Shown: positions 19,965 to 28,608 of the stretch, piece after piece | How the letters are laid out: each line of letters starts with the position of its first letter | Numbering within the stretch: position 1 is the first letter of the stretch | NCBI GenBank assembly: GCA_029940535.1 | Contig: JAPYUM010000010.1 | Location: 1-54,632 of the forward strand | Length of the DNA: 54,632 nucleotides | From: Vicinamibacterales bacterium | GTDB lineage: Bacteria; Acidobacteriota; Vicinamibacteria; Vicinamibacterales; UBA8438 | Direction: 5' to 3' | Notes under the pieces: model-generated | The model's database searches: none | Seen by the model: only the letters and a program-made list of their open reading frames with translations | What the model was told of the DNA's origin: nothing | Position numbers and translations under genes: made by a program

Positions 19965-20831
19965 GTGACCACGACGGAACTCAACTTCAACGATCGCAGC
20001 AAGGTGAGCTGGGTCACCACGATCGCGTTCGCCATCTTCCACGTCCTCGCGGTGGTCGCCTTGTTCTACACGACCTGGCAAGCGGTCGTGGTGGCCCTGG
20101 TGCTGCACTGGATCTGTATCAGTTGGGGCATCGGGATGGGGTATCACCGACTCCACACCCACCGGTCCTATACGGTGCCGAAGGCGATCGAGTATCTCTT
20201 TGCGGTTTGCGGGACGATGACGCTGCAGGGTGGCCCGATCTTCTGGACCGCCGTGCACCGGATTCACCACCAGCGTTCCGACAAACCGGGTGATCCCCAC
20301 ACGCCCCACGACGGCAGATGGTGGGCGCACATTCTCTGGACCATCTTCGGCGAGGAGATGCACTCGAACACCGAAGTCACGGGCAAGTATGCGCCCGACC
20401 TGATGAAGGACCCCTTCTACCGGGCGTTGAACAGCTGGCACTGGGTGCCGCTGGTGGTGCTTGGTCTGGTATTGCTCGCCATCGGCGGGTTGCCGTGGGT
20501 GCTCTGGGGCATCTTCCTCCGGGTGACCGTCGGACTGCACTGCACCTGGCTGGTGAACTCGGCGACCCATCTCTGGGGGAAGCGTCGGTTCCAGACCAGT
20601 GACGATTCGAAGAACAACTGGTGGGTCGCGGCGCTGACGTTCGGCGAGGGGTGGCACAACAACCACCACGCCTATCCGAGATCGGCCAAGCATGGCTTCG
20701 TGTGGCGGGAATTGGATATCAGCTGGCTTCAGATCCGGTTCCTTGCGTGGCTCGGCCTGGCCCGGGATCTCCAGGTGCCTACCGCCAGCCAGATCGCCAA
20801 CAAGACACTGCCGCTCGAAGAGGCCGCCTAA
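19965..20831 (+). CDS. acyl-CoA/fatty-acid delta-9 type desaturase
   Basis: 288-residue membrane desaturase of the di-iron histidine-box type. The three boxes are H61-R-L-H64-T-H66, HRIHH (98-102) and HNNHH (231-235), with two pairs of hydrophobic segments around them. The order and spacing match the delta-9 acyl-CoA/acyl-lipid desaturases that introduce a double bond into saturated fatty acids for membrane fluidity. The GTG at 19965 is chosen because it follows GAAGGAG by 6 bases; the longer frame lacks a ribosome site. Confidence 0.9.
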   Translation: MTTTELNFNDRSKVSWVTTIAFAIFHVLAVVALFYTTWQAVVVALVLHWICISWGIGMGYHRLHTHRSYTVPKAIEYLFAVCGTMTLQGGPIFWTAVHRIHHQRSDKPGDPHTPHDGRWWAHILWTIFGEEMHSNTEVTGKYAPDLMKDPFYRALNSWHWVPLVVLGLVLLAIGGLPWVLWGIFLRVTVGLHCTWLVNSATHLWGKRRFQTSDDSKNNWWVAALTFGEGWHNNHHAYPRSAKHGFVWRELDISWLQIRFLAWLGLARDLQVPTASQIANKTLPLEEAA

Positions 20832-20899
20832 CCGCCACGGGGCTATCCTCCCTTTCGTCGCTCCGCCCTCGCCGCCCGCGGACAGGCTATCCTTATCCC

Positions 20900-21811
20900 A
20901 TGGATCGCTCTGGCGGCACGCGCAAGCGCGCTGTGCTTCTCGTCTGGCTGCTCGGGGCCGGGCTGATCGCGGTCGCGGTCGGGCTCAACATCAGTTTCAT
21001 CGTGGTCAACTTTCGCCGGGGCCTGCTGCTGCTGGCCGGGGTGGTCGGCTTCGCGGTGCTGATTGGCGGGCTGGTGCTCACCACCGTGTTTCTCATTCGT
21101 GAGATCCGTAAGAGTGAGCAACACGATGCCTTTATTCATGCCGTCACGCATGAACTCAAGACCCCTCTCGCGTCTATCAAGCTCTATCTCCAAACGATGC
21201 GTCAGCGGGAGTTTCCGCCCGAGAAGCGGCACGAGCTGATTGACACGATGCTCGAGGACTCAGACCGATTGCAGCAGACCATCGACCAGATTCTGCTGGT
21301 GGGGAAGACCGGCGCGGCCCGGCGTGTCGACAACCCGACGGATGTGGACGTGTCCGACATCGTCCGCGAGTGCGTCGCATTGGCGGGACGGCGGCACCAT
21401 CTGGTGGACGGCGAGGTGCGGCGCGTGGACGACGCGCCGCACGGAGCCTTCGTCGTCAAGGGCGACCGCGAGGAACTGGTGGCGGCGGTGACCAACCTCG
21501 TCGACAACGCCATCAAGTATTCCGGCGAAGGGGTGCGGGTCGGGGTGGAGGTGGCGCGCATGGGGGCCAAGCGGGTCGCCATCAGCGTGCGCGATCAGGG
21601 CATCGGCATCACCCGCCAAGAACTGAAGCGCGTGTTTCGTCGGTTCTACCGTCTACCGGCGGCGCTGCAGTCACGGGTGCGGGGGACCGGCTTGGGGTTG
21701 TCCATCGTGCGGGCGGTGGCGCGGCGCCACGGTGGGCGCGCGTATGCGGAGAGTAGCGGGGCCGGGAAGGGCAGCACCTTCACGATCGAGCTTCCGTTGA
21801 AGTCATCATGA
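20900..21811 (+). CDS. two-component sensor histidine kinase
   Basis: 303 residues. Two membrane helices (about 11-34 and 41-64) enclose almost no periplasmic loop, so it probably senses the membrane itself or a partner protein. HisKA follows with H84 in VTHELKTPLASIK, then HATPase_c with NLVDNAIKYS, RDQGIGIT and GTGLGLSIVRAVARRHGG. It is first in an operon with a response regulator whose ATG overlaps its stop. The ATG at 20900 is chosen because the basic N-terminus and first helix start there. Confidence 0.9.
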   Translation: MDRSGGTRKRAVLLVWLLGAGLIAVAVGLNISFIVVNFRRGLLLLAGVVGFAVLIGGLVLTTVFLIREIRKSEQHDAFIHAVTHELKTPLASIKLYLQTMRQREFPPEKRHELIDTMLEDSDRLQQTIDQILLVGKTGAARRVDNPTDVDVSDIVRECVALAGRRHHLVDGEVRRVDDAPHGAFVVKGDREELVAAVTNLVDNAIKYSGEGVRVGVEVARMGAKRVAISVRDQGIGITRQELKRVFRRFYRLPAALQSRVRGTGLGLSIVRAVARRHGGRAYAESSGAGKGSTFTIELPLKSS

Positions 21812-22560
21812 ATCGGGTGCTGATCGTCGAGGACGAGGAACACCTCGCCGCGGGATTGCGGCTGAACCTGGAAGCGGAGGGGTTTGTCGTCGAGGTCGAG
21901 GAAAACGGCCAGGTCGCGCTGGACCGGTTGACCTCTGATGCGGACCGGTTCGACGTGGTCCTGCTGGACGTGATGCTCCCGGGGCTGGACGGGTTCGCGG
22001 TGGTCCGTCGGCTCCGTGAGGCCGGGCGGTTCGTGCCCGTGATGTTGTTGACCGCCCGTTCCCATGCCGACGACGTGCTGGCCGGGTTCGAGGCAGGCGC
22101 GGACGACTACCTGCCCAAACCGTTCGACCTTCCGATTCTGTTGGCACGCGTGCAGGGACTGCTGCGGCGCAAGACCTGGCTCCTCAGTCACGCCGCGAGC
22201 GGACCCGAGGAGTTGGAGGAGTTCGCGTTCGCCGGGAAGCGGATCGATTTTCGCGAACAGATGCTGTATTGGGACGGCACGACGCAACCGCTGACGTTGA
22301 TGGAGGCGACCCTGATGCGCTACTTCGTGCGCCGGGCCGGACACACCGTCTCCCGGAAGGCACTGCTCGAAGAGGTCTGGGGTGTTCGTGAAGACACCGA
22401 CACCCGCACCATCGACAATTTCATCGCTCGCCTGCGCCGGTATCTCGAAGCGGAGCCGTCGCATCCGAAGCATCTGCAGACGATCCGGGGCGTGGGCTAC
22501 CGTTTCGTGGCCGAGCCGGACCAGGTGGAGACACGCGGAAGCGCGGGTCCAGGGTCCTGA
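21808..22560 (+). CDS. OmpR/PhoB-family response regulator
   Basis: 250 residues. The receiver domain (1-120) has the acidic pocket ED at 8-9, phospho-acceptor D54 (VLLDVMLPG), T82 and K104 (DDYLPKPFD). A winged-helix Trans_reg_C domain follows (about 150-240, with SRKALLEEVWG and RTIDNFIARLRRYLE, ending IRGVGYRF). It is the DNA-binding output of the kinase upstream (4-base ATGA overlap). The targets may include the two genes behind it, a membrane protein and the selenoprotein, but no binding site was identified. Confidence 0.92.
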   Translation: MNRVLIVEDEEHLAAGLRLNLEAEGFVVEVEENGQVALDRLTSDADRFDVVLLDVMLPGLDGFAVVRRLREAGRFVPVMLLTARSHADDVLAGFEAGADDYLPKPFDLPILLARVQGLLRRKTWLLSHAASGPEELEEFAFAGKRIDFREQMLYWDGTTQPLTLMEATLMRYFVRRAGHTVSRKALLEEVWGVREDTDTRTIDNFIARLRRYLEAEPSHPKHLQTIRGVGYRFVAEPDQVETRGSAGPGS

Positions 22561-22562
22561 GG

Positions 22563-23198
22563 ATGCGCGCGCTGGCGAAGGTCGGGATCGGGGCGGCGGC
22601 GCTGCTGGTCGTGGCGTGGCTGTTCGTGTCGACGCTGCAGGACACGATTGCCGAACCATACGATGTCGACGACAGCGTGTTCTCGGGCTGGGCGCTGGTG
22701 TCACGCCCGCCGGCGCCCCGGGCTCTGGTCGGGCTAGGTCTCCGTCCCCCCCAGCGACTGTCTCCGGGGCTCTTCGACGAGCTGTTTGCCCGGACGATGG
22801 CCTCGTTGACGACGCCGGGCGATGCCGTCCTGCCAATCGTGCTCTCCGGCGAGCTGCAGGGCGAGCTCGGTATCGTGCTGCCGCCGGACGAGATGTTGGC
22901 GGCCGCGCGGGACGCTGGGCTCGACCGCGTCTCGTTGCGGCCCGTCTGTATGGCGGTGAAGCGAGAGCCGTTCATGGGCCGCACGCGCGAGTTCTTCTTC
23001 GTCGTGGTTGACGCCCCGGAGCTCGTAGCGTTCCGGGCCCGGCTCAGCGCCATGGCGGCCGAGCGTGGCGTCGCCGATGCGCTGAACGATCCGACGTTCG
23101 AGTTCGTCCTTCCCGTGGCCGCATCAGACGCCGAGTTCGACACCTGGTGGCCGCTGGTCGTGGACCGCGAGACCGACTGCCAGGCGCCCGTGGAATAG
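22563..23198 (+). CDS. membrane-anchored protein of unknown function
   Basis: 211 residues with one N-terminal hydrophobic helix (residues 9-24), so it is anchored or secreted. The rest shows no motif I recognise. It has two cysteines (one in RPVCMAVKREPF, one in the C-terminal TDCQAP) and a region ELQGELGIVLPPDEMLAAARDAGL. It begins 2 bases after the response regulator stop, and the ribosome site of the selenoprotein gene overlaps its stop codon, so it belongs to the same operon. It may be a partner of the redox protein that follows; this is inferred from position only. Confidence 0.7.
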   Translation: MRALAKVGIGAAALLVVAWLFVSTLQDTIAEPYDVDDSVFSGWALVSRPPAPRALVGLGLRPPQRLSPGLFDELFARTMASLTTPGDAVLPIVLSGELQGELGIVLPPDEMLAAARDAGLDRVSLRPVCMAVKREPFMGRTREFFFVVVDAPELVAFRARLSAMAAERGVADALNDPTFEFVLPVAASDAEFDTWWPLVVDRETDCQAPVE

Positions 23199-23208
23199 GA
23201 GGACAAGC

Positions 23209-23844
23209 ATGCCCGAGACCACCGTGCTTCAGGTGTTTACCGACTTCGTGTGACCGTGGTGCTATCTCAGTACCGGGCGTATTGAGCGACTACAGCAGGC
23301 CTACCATCTCGATCTGCGATGGGTCTTTTTCCCGTTGCATCCGGAGACCCCCGAGGACGGACGTCCGCTCGATGAGTTGTTTGCCGGACGTGGCTATGAC
23401 CTGGAGGCGATGCACGCGCGGATGCAAGGGTTGATGGATGCCGAGGCGCTGCCCTATGGTCGCCGCACGCATACCTACAACAGCCGTCTCGCGCAGGAAC
23501 TGGCCAAGTGGGCCGATTCCCGGTGCGAGGGGGGTCGGTTGCACCACCTGACCTATCACGCGTATTTTGCCGAGGGACGCAACATCGGCGATCCGGGCGT
23601 GCTCGCCGACCTGGCGGACGCGGCCGGGCTCCCGGTCGACGAGGCCCTGGTGGTGCTCGACCAGCGAACATGGCGAGACGCCGTGGATGCCGATTGGGCG
23701 ATGTCATCGCGCTCCGGTATCACTGGCGTCCCGACGTTCGTAGCCGGTGGCCGGCAGGCCGTCGGTGCCCAGCCCGAATCGGTCCTGCGTGGACTGCTGG
23801 ACGCCGCGGACGCCCAGCCGCGTCTCGAGGACACGAGCCCCTAG
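23209..23844 (+). CDS. DsbA/FrnE-like oxidoreductase, selenoprotein (UPWC)
   Basis: The ATG at 23209 lies 6 bases after a perfect AGGAGG. The frame reads MPETTVLQVFTDFV, then TGA (23251-23253), then PWCYLSTGRIERLQ, and stays open to TAG at 23844, giving 211 residues with the TGA as an amino acid. In DsbA/FrnE proteins the active site is FVCPWCYL, so the TGA stands exactly for the first, nucleophilic cysteine (residue 15; C18 is the resolving one). The rest of the thioredoxin/DsbA fold is complete, including the helical insert and the cis-proline loop (GITGVPTFVAGG). A hairpin at SECIS distance follows the TGA. I read it as selenocysteine. No signal peptide is seen, as for cytosolic FrnE. Alternatives are a sequencing error or a point-mutated pseudogene. 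Confidence 0.87.
23266..23286 (+). promoter_or_regulatory. candidate bacterial SECIS hairpin (DsbA-like gene)
   Basis: CTCAGTAC (23266-23273) pairs with GTATTGAG (23279-23286) over 8 bp, with one G-U pair. The loop is CGGGC and starts 21 bases after the TGA. A small hairpin with a guanine among the first two loop bases, 16-37 bases behind the UGA, is the known general pattern of bacterial SECIS elements read by SelB. Confidence 0.65.
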
Positions 23845-24941
23845 TGTCGTGTGGGGGCAGACGGACGGGTTAGCCCGAGCTCAGCGCGGGCGTCGGCCGA
23901 TCCGCGCTCGAGGCGGTCGCCGAGTTCGATGCCGGTCGAACCGGCGATACGGACCATCCGTTCGAAGTTCGACGCGACGCCGGCCGCGTCCACCGTGGCG
24001 GCCGGGCCGATCGCTTCGACGACGGCGGTCCGCGCGGCCTCCAATGCCTGCGACCCTGTGACGATCGCCTCCGCGAACGCGATGAGCGTCGGGCCATGGG
24101 GCACACGACTGTCGTGGCCGGGGTTGGCGATCGCGGTGATGTCTGCGGGTTCGCCTTCGAGCGCACTGCTCTCACGGAGCATCCAGGCATGAGCGCTGGT
24201 TCAATAGAAACAGTCGTGGAGCACTGACACGCGACCGGCGATTAGCTCCATCTGCGGGCGGCTGAGGCTTCCCTGACAGGCGCTCGCGTCGCGGACCCGC
24301 TCGTTCGGCAGATAGTGGACCGCGCTGAGGTCGGCCAAGGTTCTCACCTCGTCGGGCACGAGACTCATCGCGCGAATCACGTTGCCGGTCTTCCCCGCGG
24401 GCCAGAGGTCCGCCTCCGGGGTGTCGGCGTTGTCCATCGGCACCATCGGCACCCAGGCTTCGTCGAGATGGAGGACGGCACGCGCCGGTCGGTAGGCGGT
24501 GGGCGCACCCGGGAGCGGTGCGGGTAACGCATGCTCCGGCACCGCCACCGCGCGGCAGAACCGGTCGATACTGACCAACGCGACGACAGTGCCGACAATC
24601 TCGACGTACTGCCCGTCGCTCAGCCCCTCGGCAAGCCGAGCCTCGTACCAGCGCCGGGTGAGCCGGCCGGCATCCTGCATGACGGCGTGAGCGACCTCGA
24701 CCGCGGCGTCGGGGAGGTCGGTGACGGCGGTGTGGCGTCCGGCTACGATGTGCGGTGACAGGGCCGACCGGCGCTGGCGGCAGTGATCACACCTGGCCGC
24801 CGCGCGTGCCTCGTGCGCGATGGCGACGCGCTCGGCCCCCGTCCAGCCGGCGCCGGGTCGGGCCAGCCGGTCCCAGAAGCGTTGATGACTCTCGGCGAAC
24901 CCCGACCGGACGGGCACTGGAGCACTGGCATACGAGAGCAT
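23841..24941 (-). CDS. AhpD-like/CMD-domain protein, selenoprotein (CFYU)
   Basis: 366 residues with one in-frame TGA read as an amino acid. Residues 1-246 run from MLSYASAPVPV to VSVLHDCFY; then TGA (24203-24201); then TSAHAWMLRESSALEGE to the end in the same frame. In the carboxymuconolactone-decarboxylase/AhpD fold the redox motif is CxxC followed by a histidine (ECFYCxxSHAxML). Here it is C244-F-Y-U247-T-S-A-H. The region before (SRPQMELIAGRVS) and after matches the family without gaps. A first, degenerate half carries another CxxC (C51, C54). Probable role: thiol/selenol peroxidase or related reductase. It starts 12 bases behind the serine hydrolase stop and converges on the DsbA-like selenoprotein, sharing CTAG. 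Confidence 0.86.
24167..24181 (-). promoter_or_regulatory. candidate bacterial SECIS hairpin (AhpD-like gene)
   Basis: On the minus strand TGCTC and GAGCA form a 5-bp stem with the loop CGTGA, which begins 25 bases after the TGA and has G as its second base. A competing hairpin (CTCATG with CGTGAG, 11-base loop, starting 8 bases after the TGA) is also possible. The structure is weaker than that of the convergent gene. Confidence 0.5.
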
Positions 24942-24953
24942 CGCGCAAGGGCC

Positions 24954-26201
24954 TCAATCCACGATGGCGCCGTAGACCAGTTCTTTGAATTCCTCCCGGA
25001 ATCCGCCGCCCCGCGACGGCGAGACCGCGGCCATGATGACCGCGACAATGCCGTGTTCCGGGTCGATGGAGAACCGGGTGCCCGAGGACCCGTCCCACCA
25101 GTACTCGCCCTGTCCCACTGGAAACGAATAGGCGCTCGCATCCAGCACGACGTTGAAGCCAAGGCCCCAGCCGGAGCCGGCCATATATCCGCCACCGATC
25201 GGCAGCACCGTGTCCGGGAGATGATTGCGCGTCATCAGCGCCACCGTGTCGGCACGCAGAACACGCGTGCCGCCCAGTTCTCCCGCGTTCAGGAACATCT
25301 GCGAGAACCGGACGAAGTCCATCACCGAGGATAGCAACCCGACCCCGCCCTCGATCAGCGTGGGTCGTTGGGTGAACGGCACCTCCTCGATCGCGTGCGG
25401 ACGCAGCGCGCCGGTCTCGCGGTCCGGCCGGTACACGCTCGTGAGCCGGTCGGCGCGTTTGCCGTCGGCCCAGAAGACGGTGTCCGTCATGCCGAGCGGT
25501 GCCAGCACGCGCTCCTGCAGGAACTCCTCGAATGGCTGACCAGACCAGATTTCGACGAGCCGGCCGAGCATCGTCGTGGAGATGCCGTAGCGGAAACGTG
25601 TGCCCGGGTCTTCAAACAGCGGCACGCGGGCCGCATTCGCGACCATCTGGGTCAAGGGAATGGAACGCAGTCGAACCCCCTCGGCACGGTAGATCGTCGA
25701 GCTGCGGCTGCCGATGCCAGACGAGTGGGTGAGCAGGTGCCGCACGGTGATGTCGCCGTCGCGTGCGCGGGTCTGCGACAGGTCCGGGTCGCTGGCGTCG
25801 AGAAACACCCGTTGGTCTTCGAATTCGGGAATGTATCGCGAGACCGGATCATCGAGCTGAAACTTGCCTTCCTCCCACAGGATCATCACCGCGGTGCTGG
25901 TGATCGGTCGGGTCATCGAATACAGACGGAAGATGGCGTCCTCGGGCATGACGTCGCCCGCGGCGAGGTCCCGCTGACCGAGCGCCTCCAGATACACGAG
26001 CTTGCCGTGCCGGGCCACCGCGGCGACGACGCCCGCCACATCTCCGGCGTCGACGTGGTCCTGGAGCGCGGCCGTCGCCGCCGTCAGACCCGCCGAGGAC
26101 AGACCGACCGACTCTGGCGTGGCCCGGGCCAGATCCTGGGCTGCGGCCTGGGGGCCCGCCGCGAGGTACGCGAGTGCGAGCGTGAGAGCTACAAGCTTCA
26201 T
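24954..26201 (-). CDS. exported serine hydrolase (beta-lactamase class C/EstB-like)
   Basis: 415 residues with a signal peptide (MKLVALTLALAYLAAGPQAA). It has the penicillin-binding-protein/class C beta-lactamase fold. The nucleophile is S95 in RLYSMTRPITS, followed by FRYGIST (tyrosine motif) and WWDGSSGTRFSIDPE near the C-terminus. The usual SxxK lysine is arginine here (R98), a variant of unknown effect. Such proteins are mostly esterases or D-aminopeptidases rather than true beta-lactamases. The ATG at 26201 is chosen for the signal peptide. The AhpD-like selenoprotein gene follows 12 bases downstream. Confidence 0.85.
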   Translation of the reverse strand: MKLVALTLALAYLAAGPQAAAQDLARATPESVGLSSAGLTAATAALQDHVDAGDVAGVVAAVARHGKLVYLEALGQRDLAAGDVMPEDAIFRLYSMTRPITSTAVMILWEEGKFQLDDPVSRYIPEFEDQRVFLDASDPDLSQTRARDGDITVRHLLTHSSGIGSRSSTIYRAEGVRLRSIPLTQMVANAARVPLFEDPGTRFRYGISTTMLGRLVEIWSGQPFEEFLQERVLAPLGMTDTVFWADGKRADRLTSVYRPDRETGALRPHAIEEVPFTQRPTLIEGGVGLLSSVMDFVRFSQMFLNAGELGGTRVLRADTVALMTRNHLPDTVLPIGGGYMAGSGWGLGFNVVLDASAYSFPVGQGEYWWDGSSGTRFSIDPEHGIVAVIMAAVSPSRGGGFREEFKELVYGAIVD

Positions 26202-26251
26202 GGCTCGGATCTTAGCAGTTCGCGGTGGCGCAGGAGGGGTACGGCCGACGG

Positions 26252-26257
26252 TATAAT
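26252..26257 (+). promoter_or_regulatory. TATAAT -10 box of the DUF5916 gene
   Basis: A perfect TATAAT lies 62 bases before the ATG at 26320, in the divergent region between the serine hydrolase and DUF5916 genes. No -35 consensus is seen. Confidence 0.5.
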
Positions 26258-26319
26258 CGACCGTTTGTCGTCTGCTCGAGACGGTCACTAGACGGGCGAC
26301 GAGGTAGAGAGTACTGACT

Positions 26320-28608
26320 ATGCGTTTGGCGGCGGTGTGCGGCGTGGTGATGTGCGCCTGTCTGGGTGTCGGTGCTCGACCCGCGGAGGCGCAGTCGGCG
26401 ACGGAGGCGGCTGCTACCGACGTGTCGCTTGGACTGAGCCCCGGCCGACCCCGGGTGCGACCGGTGCGAGTCGACGCCCCTCCGGTGATCGACGGACGGC
26501 TCGACGACGAGGCCTGGCAGACGGCGACGGTCCTGACAGAATTCCTCCAGCAGTCGCCGCTCGACGGCGCGCCGGCCACCGAGCCTACCGAGGTCTACAT
26601 CGCGTACGACAGCGACCATCTCTACTTCGGGTTTGCCGTGCACTACTCGGACCCGTCCATCATGCGGGCCAATCGGGTCGACCGCGACCGTGCGCCCCAG
26701 GACGATCTGATGACCGTGTATCTCGATACATTTCTCGACCAACAGCGGTCGTACGACTTTGACGTCAATGGATACGGCGTGCAGGGCGACGGCATCATCG
26801 ATGCGGGCGGTGGCCGGTCGCAGGCGATTCCGTTCGCGGACCGGTCGTGGGACGCGTTGTTCGAGACCGCCGGTCAGATCGTCGAGGATGGCTATCGGGC
26901 CGAGATGGCGATTCCGTTCAAGAGCCTTCGATACCCCCGGCGCGATGCGGGCGAGCCGCACCAGTGGGGTTTCCAGATCGTGCGTGAGATCAAAGGGAAG
27001 GACCAGGAGAACGATGTCTGGGCGCCGATGTCTCGCGACGAACCCAGTTTTCTGGCCCAGATGGGCCTGATCGAGGGCATGACCGGGTTGTCGACCAGCC
27101 GCAATCTGGAATTCCTTCCAACCTTTACGGCGATCAAGTTCGGCGCGCTGGACGAAACGACCGGTACCTTCGAAACTGGTGACACCGACCCCGATGCCGG
27201 GCTGAATGTGAAATACGGGGTCACGTCGAACCTGATCGCCGACTTCACCGTTAATCCGGATTTCTCGCAAATCGAATCTGACCGTCCCCAGATCGAAGTC
27301 AACCGGCGGTTTCCGTTGTTTTTCTCTGAACTGCGGCCCTTCTTTCTTGAAGGCGCCGAAATTTTCAGCGTGCGGGGGCCGGTGACGTTCGTGCACACCA
27401 GAACCATCGTCGACCCGCGCGTGGGCGCCAAGCTGAGCGGCAAGGCGGGGAACACGGCGCTCGGCGTGCTCTTCGCCGATGACGAGGCGCCAGGCAACCT
27501 CGACGACGCGGGTGCTCTCGGATTCGGGAAGACGGCGAAGACCTTCATCGGTCGCGTCAAACACGATCTCTACACGGAGTCGCACATTGGCGGGATGTTC
27601 ACGAACCGGGAATTTGCCGGCGCCTACAGCCGTCTTGGGATGTTCGACGGCGATTTTCGCCTCGGCAGCACGCACACCCTGGGCTACCGCGTGGCCGGCA
27701 CCCAACGTCGCGACGCCGACGACGCGGAGGGCGGGGAGACGACCGGGTATTTGTGGGACGTCGACTTTCGGAAGCAGGGTCGCAACCTGAGCTATTTCGT
27801 GGCCAGTTTTGCGCTCTCGCCGGACTTCGAGACCGACTCGGGGTTCGTGCGACGCCAGGACCAGAAGCGGACATTCGGCAACATCGGGTATCGCTGGTGG
27901 CCGGAATCCTGGCTGATCAGCTGGGGGCCCGAGTTCGGGTATGGGCGACTGTTCGACTTTGACGGCGTGCTGCAGGACGAGAACACCTCTGGCGGCGTGG
28001 ACCTCGAGTTTGCCAAGAACATCAGTGTTGGCGCCAGCGCAAGCCGGGACCTCGAGCGGTTCGAAGGCATCGACTTCGTGCAGAACCGAATCAAGCTCAA
28101 CGGGCGCATCAATACGAACCGAGCCTTTCAACTGGGGGCCGGGTTCAACACCGGCGACCAGCTGTTCTTCGATGTCGACAACCCGTTTCTGGGGCGCGGG
28201 ATCGGCGGGAATATCAATGCGACGCTTCGGCCGGTGTCGAGATTTCAGTCACGCCTCAGCTTCGACGTGAGCCGCCTGACCGATCCCAGAAACGATGACG
28301 TCGAGGTGTTCAACGTCAAGATCGTCCGGGCGCAAAGCACCTATCAGTTCACCGACCGATTGCTGTTGCGCAACATCACCGAGTTCAATACATTCGATGA
28401 CACGATTGACCTCAACCTGCTCTTTACGTATCGCGTCAACGCCGGTACCGTGTTCTATGGCGGCTATGATGACCACTATCAGCAGGCCGATCGTGTGGGC
28501 AACGATCTCGACGCTGATGGAATAGACGACCCGTTTCTGCTGACACAGGACTATCGACGCACGAATCGGGCTGTGTTCATGAAGGTCCAATATTTGTTTC
28601 GATACTAG
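26320..28608 (+). CDS. DUF5916 outer-membrane protein with CBM9-like domain
   Basis: 762 residues. A signal peptide (ending ARPAEAQS) is followed by a CBM9-like beta-sandwich (about 45-230: APPVIDGRLDDEAWQTA, YIAYDSDHLYFGFAV, WGFQIVREIKGKD). Then comes the DUF5916 beta-barrel region to the C-terminus, which ends in aromatic VQYLFRY as outer-membrane barrels do. The stretch NPDFSQIESDRPQIEVNRRFP and FFSELRPFFLEGAEIF is the family signature. These proteins are common in Acidobacteria and Bacteroidetes and are thought to work in uptake or processing of large molecules. The propeller gene follows on the same strand. Confidence 0.88.
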   Translation: MRLAAVCGVVMCACLGVGARPAEAQSATEAAATDVSLGLSPGRPRVRPVRVDAPPVIDGRLDDEAWQTATVLTEFLQQSPLDGAPATEPTEVYIAYDSDHLYFGFAVHYSDPSIMRANRVDRDRAPQDDLMTVYLDTFLDQQRSYDFDVNGYGVQGDGIIDAGGGRSQAIPFADRSWDALFETAGQIVEDGYRAEMAIPFKSLRYPRRDAGEPHQWGFQIVREIKGKDQENDVWAPMSRDEPSFLAQMGLIEGMTGLSTSRNLEFLPTFTAIKFGALDETTGTFETGDTDPDAGLNVKYGVTSNLIADFTVNPDFSQIESDRPQIEVNRRFPLFFSELRPFFLEGAEIFSVRGPVTFVHTRTIVDPRVGAKLSGKAGNTALGVLFADDEAPGNLDDAGALGFGKTAKTFIGRVKHDLYTESHIGGMFTNREFAGAYSRLGMFDGDFRLGSTHTLGYRVAGTQRRDADDAEGGETTGYLWDVDFRKQGRNLSYFVASFALSPDFETDSGFVRRQDQKRTFGNIGYRWWPESWLISWGPEFGYGRLFDFDGVLQDENTSGGVDLEFAKNISVGASASRDLERFEGIDFVQNRIKLNGRINTNRAFQLGAGFNTGDQLFFDVDNPFLGRGIGGNINATLRPVSRFQSRLSFDVSRLTDPRNDDVEVFNVKIVRAQSTYQFTDRLLLRNITEFNTFDDTIDLNLLFTYRVNAGTVFYGGYDDHYQQADRVGNDLDADGIDDPFLLTQDYRRTNRAVFMKVQYLFRY

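Follow-up and report, generated by a model that had tools for sequence, protein, structure and literature searches.

A gene at positions 23209..23844 on the forward strand of the window, the 54,632 nt stretch of a Vicinamibacterales genome analyzed here, very probably specifies a selenoprotein: a cytoplasmic thiol-disulfide oxidoreductase of the FrnE type (DsbA fold), made by reading an in-frame UGA as selenocysteine (Sec). The predicted protein, denoted FrnE(U), is 211 aa long and carries Sec at residue 15, the nucleophilic position of a U-P-W-C motif; the assignment draws on the translation with TGA read as U, the Pfam DSBA domain (PF01323), structures in the PDB, an AlphaFold2 model and the conservation of the TGA codon (23251..23253). 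It is firmly supported, through sequence comparison, that FrnE(U) joins a selenoprotein family known since 2005 and does not constitute a new kind.

The FrnE(U) reading frame contains one stop codon within 23209-23841, the TGA at 23251-23253, and ends at a TAG (23842-23844). The sequence-only reading had described a frame open on both sides of the TGA, an ATG with a perfect AGGAGG and an otherwise complete fold, and all three observations hold. In particular, no second internal stop is present; the AGGAGG ribosome-binding site (23197..23202, forward strand) precedes the ATG at 23209 with a 6 nt spacing; and PF01323 matches residues 7-196 at 104.8 bits (cut-off of 25.6 bits), covering both sides of the TGA, while the structural model matches FrnE of Deinococcus radiodurans. 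The TGA is followed by CCG TGG TGC TAT, giving U-P-W-C-Y, and the peptide translated with TGA as U is MPETTVLQVFTDFV-U-PWCYLSTGRIERL. Moreover, when the TGAs located in otherwise open stretches of the window were scanned for codon usage, TGA 23251-23253 yielded the top two-sided coding signal.

Read with translation table 11, the frame ends after 14 residues. The TGA could then be a true stop or a programmed switch, separating a 14-residue leader from a shorter downstream protein, for example one of 169 aa beginning at TTG 23335, and an ORF with a TTG start is indeed present there. However, such a protein would be deprived of strand 1, helix 1 and the entire family-invariant UPWC motif, and the Cys homologues have an uninterrupted frame at this site; a genuine stop or switch is accordingly given hardly any weight.

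Comparisons across homologues show that the TGA is retained. Exactly one in-frame TGA is found in 12 of 12 orthologues (60 relatives searched, own gene included), with identities down to about 46% and without any other stop. Across 297 genomes of the phylum, the five proteins with at least 42% identity, including the window's, each have one TGA, and a sixth match at 31% identity has none. Further, among 80 loci of named genomes, TGA occurs in the two nearest, which are Acidobacteria MAGs (86% and 66% identity), and in one Geobacteraceae MAG, while the remainder have TGC or TGT. The earlier claim that the TGA occupies the position of the nucleophilic Cys is thereby confirmed, and the alignment proposed as a check does reveal a column of C or U: all 78 other homologues examined have TGC or TGT at this position. 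Counting U as C, 53 sequences share D12, C15, P16, W17, C18, Y19, L43 and P175 without exception. Downstream of the TGA, dN/dS values of 0.19-0.37 indicate that the encoded protein is under purifying selection.

These comparisons bear on two other explanations. A dying pseudogene, whose Cys codon (TGC or TGT) mutated to TGA, would require only a single TGC-to-TGA change and would be consistent with the early end of the table 11 frame, but the retention of a single TGA in every orthologue, the lack of other stops and the low dN/dS behind the TGA all argue against it. Likewise, an error of sequencing or assembly at 23251-23253 could be suspected in a draft of 228 contigs, but TGA appears at the same codon in independent assemblies of other species. 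With the TGA conserved and the protein under purifying selection, both a pseudogene and a sequencing error are therefore practically excluded. Phylogenetically, a supported group of 31 sequences unites the TGA forms with the Cys forms nearest to them and excludes the other FrnE proteins; the tree as drawn implies two or more switches between Sec and Cys, in either direction, and is also compatible with one origin.

The genome (4.83 Mb, 96.85% complete, 0.05% contamination) encodes the machinery needed to read UGA as Sec. The search for Sec genes suggested by the sequence-only reading found selA, selB, selD and tRNA-Sec(UCA), with scores of 531 bits for SelA, 344.5 bits for SelB and 292.2 bits for SelD, all above their curated cut-offs, and 66.8 bits for tRNA-Sec, also above its cut-off; ARAGORN reports a tRNA-SeC with the anticodon tca (UCA). 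These genes are located on other contigs than the window, the assembly being a draft of 228 contigs. The objection that the genome might have no Sec genes therefore falls away. Across relatives, selA is present in every TGA carrier tested, in one case as a fragment only, within a genome that is 74% complete. The genomes of two of the nearest Cys homologues (L018 and L024) do not have selA, and a planctomycete bearing the Cys form does. Separately, sister genome G299 has two full-length selA matches with similar scores on separate contigs (C22:4684-6024 and C18:19497-20855), resulting from either duplication or contamination (6%).

UGA codons that direct the insertion of Cys or Trp are known elsewhere, and the UGA here could similarly be read as Trp or Cys through suppression or a reassigned code. 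However, the genome has the full Sec system with tRNA(UCA), there are 0 occurrences of Trp at the residue-15 column among the aligned homologues, and the neighboring genes in the window follow the standard code, making a Trp or Cys reading barely credible. The proposed recoding to selenocysteine is supported by the C/U column, by the Sec machinery and by a constrained, SECIS-like hairpin.

The predicted bacterial SECIS hairpin, CUCAGUAC-CGGGC-GUAUUGAG, is located at 23266..23286 on the forward strand, as suggested by codon identity, pair counts and model constraints. It has an 8-bp stem and a 5-nt apical loop with a G at loop position 2, and its folding free energy is -7.5 kcal/mol when folded alone; the stem starts 12 nt and the loop 20 nt behind the UGA. 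The bacterial SECIS model has an apical loop of 3-9 nt, a stem of 4-16 bp, a G in the first two loop positions, a distance of 16-37 nt from the UGA, and an energy of at most -7.5 kcal/mol (PMC13188914). The window's hairpin satisfies all of these constraints (loop, stem, G, distance and energy); some relatives satisfy all except the energy, or carry one mismatch.

The case for a SECIS is made by the silencing of synonymous variation in the codons behind the TGA. There, TCAGTACCGNGCGTAYTGA is nearly unchanged even between proteins whose residue identity falls to about 41%. Where residues agree, codon identity is 0.965 at codons 20-26, compared to 0.454 at codons 27-211; at codons 20-25 it reaches 100%, compared to a mean of 44% in 76 other conserved columns. 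The consensus pairing behind the TGA is UCAGUAC-CGNGC-GUAYUGA, with seven pairs possible. Six or seven of these pairs form in 19 of 19 TGA sequences, compared to a mean of 3.9 in the 78 Cys homologues, and all seven appear in 0.08% of random synonymous codings of the same peptide. The hairpin's energy is not distinctive, as 14 of the 78 Cys homologues reach -7.5 kcal/mol or lower with a hairpin in that region, and shuffled versions of the window's stretch fold at least as well. RNAalifold calculations on the whole alignment favor a different, overlapping pairing. The SECIS stem scarcely varies among the sequences, and covariation analysis is therefore uninformative. A search of the genome with Rfam SECIS_1 found no match; the control genomes likewise had none, so that this search is uninformative.

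The AlphaFold2 model, calculated with 53 homologues, has a pLDDT of 96.0 and a pTM of 0.92. Its best PDB match is FrnE (5co3) with a TM score of 0.88 and an rmsd of 1.7, and a PDB search by sequence also retrieves FrnE (5cp1/5cnw, E = 3.4e-20); by sequence, the nearest solved structures are D. radiodurans FrnE and Streptomyces coelicolor SCO1869. In the model, residue 15 directly precedes the first long helix (16-31), at its N-terminal end, and P175 of the TGVP loop, invariant in the 53 sequences, is expected to be the cis-Pro beside Sec15. No signal peptide is apparent by eye in FrnE(U), since its first strand begins at residue 5 of the model. Overall, the traits of the FrnE subfamily (cd03024) are present, namely the DsbA fold, a UXXC where helix 1 begins and the TGVP loop, and the placement in this subfamily rests on the model, its best PDB match and the inspection for a signal peptide by eye. 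Kappa-class GST and HCCA isomerase have the DSBA superfamily fold in common with FrnE(U), but their similarities are weaker (TM scores of 0.72-0.77, 14-17% identity).

FrnE of D. radiodurans (DR_0659; 5co3, 5cp1, 5cnw) shares with FrnE(U) its fold (TM score of 0.88), a CPWC-type active site, the TGVP loop and the lack of an apparent signal peptide. In contrast, FrnE(U) has Sec in place of the first Cys, is about 30% identical, and has no C-terminal CXXXXC pair; its sole further Cys, C106, is not conserved. D. radiodurans FrnE is a cytoplasmic disulfide reductase/isomerase whose C-terminal CXXXXC was proposed to serve its regeneration (PMC8945050). FrnE proteins without the pair exist; it is found in many members and is thus not strictly defining (PMC8945050).

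By analogy, FrnE(U) would have disulfide reductase/isomerase activity, and we infer, as follows, that Sec is inserted in vivo, how the enzyme reacts, which way electrons flow, what reduces it and what role it plays. SelB, carrying Sec-tRNA(UCA), would bind the mRNA hairpin behind the UGA and deliver Sec at residue 15. The Sec15 selenolate should then attack the substrate's disulfide, and Cys18 should resolve the mixed selenenyl-sulfide to leave an internal Se-S bond. A thioredoxin- or glutathione-type system would reduce this internal bond; because the CXXXXC is absent, the reductant probably acts on it directly. The likely role is disulfide reduction or isomerization during oxidative or metal stress, perhaps controlled by the adjacent two-component system.

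DsbA-like selenoproteins with a UxxC motif (COG2761) were reported in 2005 from 9 Sargasso Sea sequences (PMC1088965), were found again as 'DsbA 1' in GOS data (PMC2398784), and appear as 'DsbA-like protein form 1' (PF01323, UxxC) in a table of a 2026 review (PMC13188914). Like them, FrnE(U) has a PF01323 domain, Sec in the first position of UxxC and widespread Cys homologues; compared by description, the two do not differ in kind. What belongs to FrnE(U) itself is its UPWC motif, its position behind a two-component system and its Acidobacteriota host. Gene calling with table 11 would truncate it at residue 14 or start it past the active site, and the same mis-annotation is expected in relatives of this genome. 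Moreover, the comparisons delineate a clade of Acidobacteriota FrnE proteins in which Sec is the norm, the Cys versions occurring in Gammaproteobacteria and Planctomycetota. This creates a clean Sec/Cys pair for asking what the selenium contributes to an enzyme of the DsbA type, and FrnE(U) offers a candidate SECIS with nearly frozen codons.

The gene belongs to a conserved cluster on the forward strand. The cluster begins with a sensor histidine kinase (20621..21811; HisKA and HATPase_c domains), for which the GTG start listed probably lies too far upstream, followed by an OmpR-type response regulator (21808..22560; Response_reg and Trans_reg_C domains), both conserved upstream in relatives. 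Next is a 211-aa protein with an N-terminal hydrophobic segment (22563..23198), which occupies the same place in most relatives and has no match in Pfam or NCBIfam; the stop of its gene overlaps the selenoprotein gene's ribosome-binding site. A serine hydrolase of the beta-lactamase fold family (24954-26579, reverse strand) converges on the cluster and keeps this neighboring position within the family; its listed GTG start, too, is probably set too early. This arrangement, from the kinase through the regulator, the 211-aa protein and FrnE(U) to the convergent serine hydrolase, is shared throughout the genus and, within reach of the stretches compared, in most of the family; the exceptions are L110, without a match to the 211-aa protein, and L117, the most distant family member, which matches no neighbor. 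Because the order from kinase to FrnE(U) is conserved, FrnE(U) might serve the adjacent two-component system as its redox output or as a sensor partner, though we regard such a partnership as unlikely. If true, it would be a selenium-dependent signaling operon, of which we know no earlier description.

In the window, a second predicted selenoprotein gene stands between the FrnE(U) and serine hydrolase genes; it and the FrnE(U) gene meet tail to tail, with CTAG common to both. Located at 23841..24941 on the reverse strand, it encodes an AhpD-related (seleno)protein of 366 aa with a CFYUT motif and a Sec codon at 24203-24201, according to its translation and its NF041238 match (434.2 bits, cut-off of 175). 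The family is the 'hypothetical protein 1' of the 2005 paper (PMC1088965), and the TGA is retained in relatives elsewhere. In the nearest sister genome (L016:3742-4354, L107:780-1392), the gene is missing about 95 internal codons immediately before the Sec codon and its two remaining parts no longer share a frame, which looks like a recent loss of the selenoprotein. The possibility that the two tail-to-tail genes form a functional pair was considered and rejected: the AhpD-related gene separates FrnE(U) from the serine hydrolase only in the window and one sister genome, the sister copy is broken, and other relatives are without the gene at this place. A hairpin, UGCUC-CGUGA-GAGCA, begins 19 nt behind the TGA of the AhpD-related gene, and relative L103 has a stronger hairpin in this gene, with the loop CGGGC as in FrnE(U).
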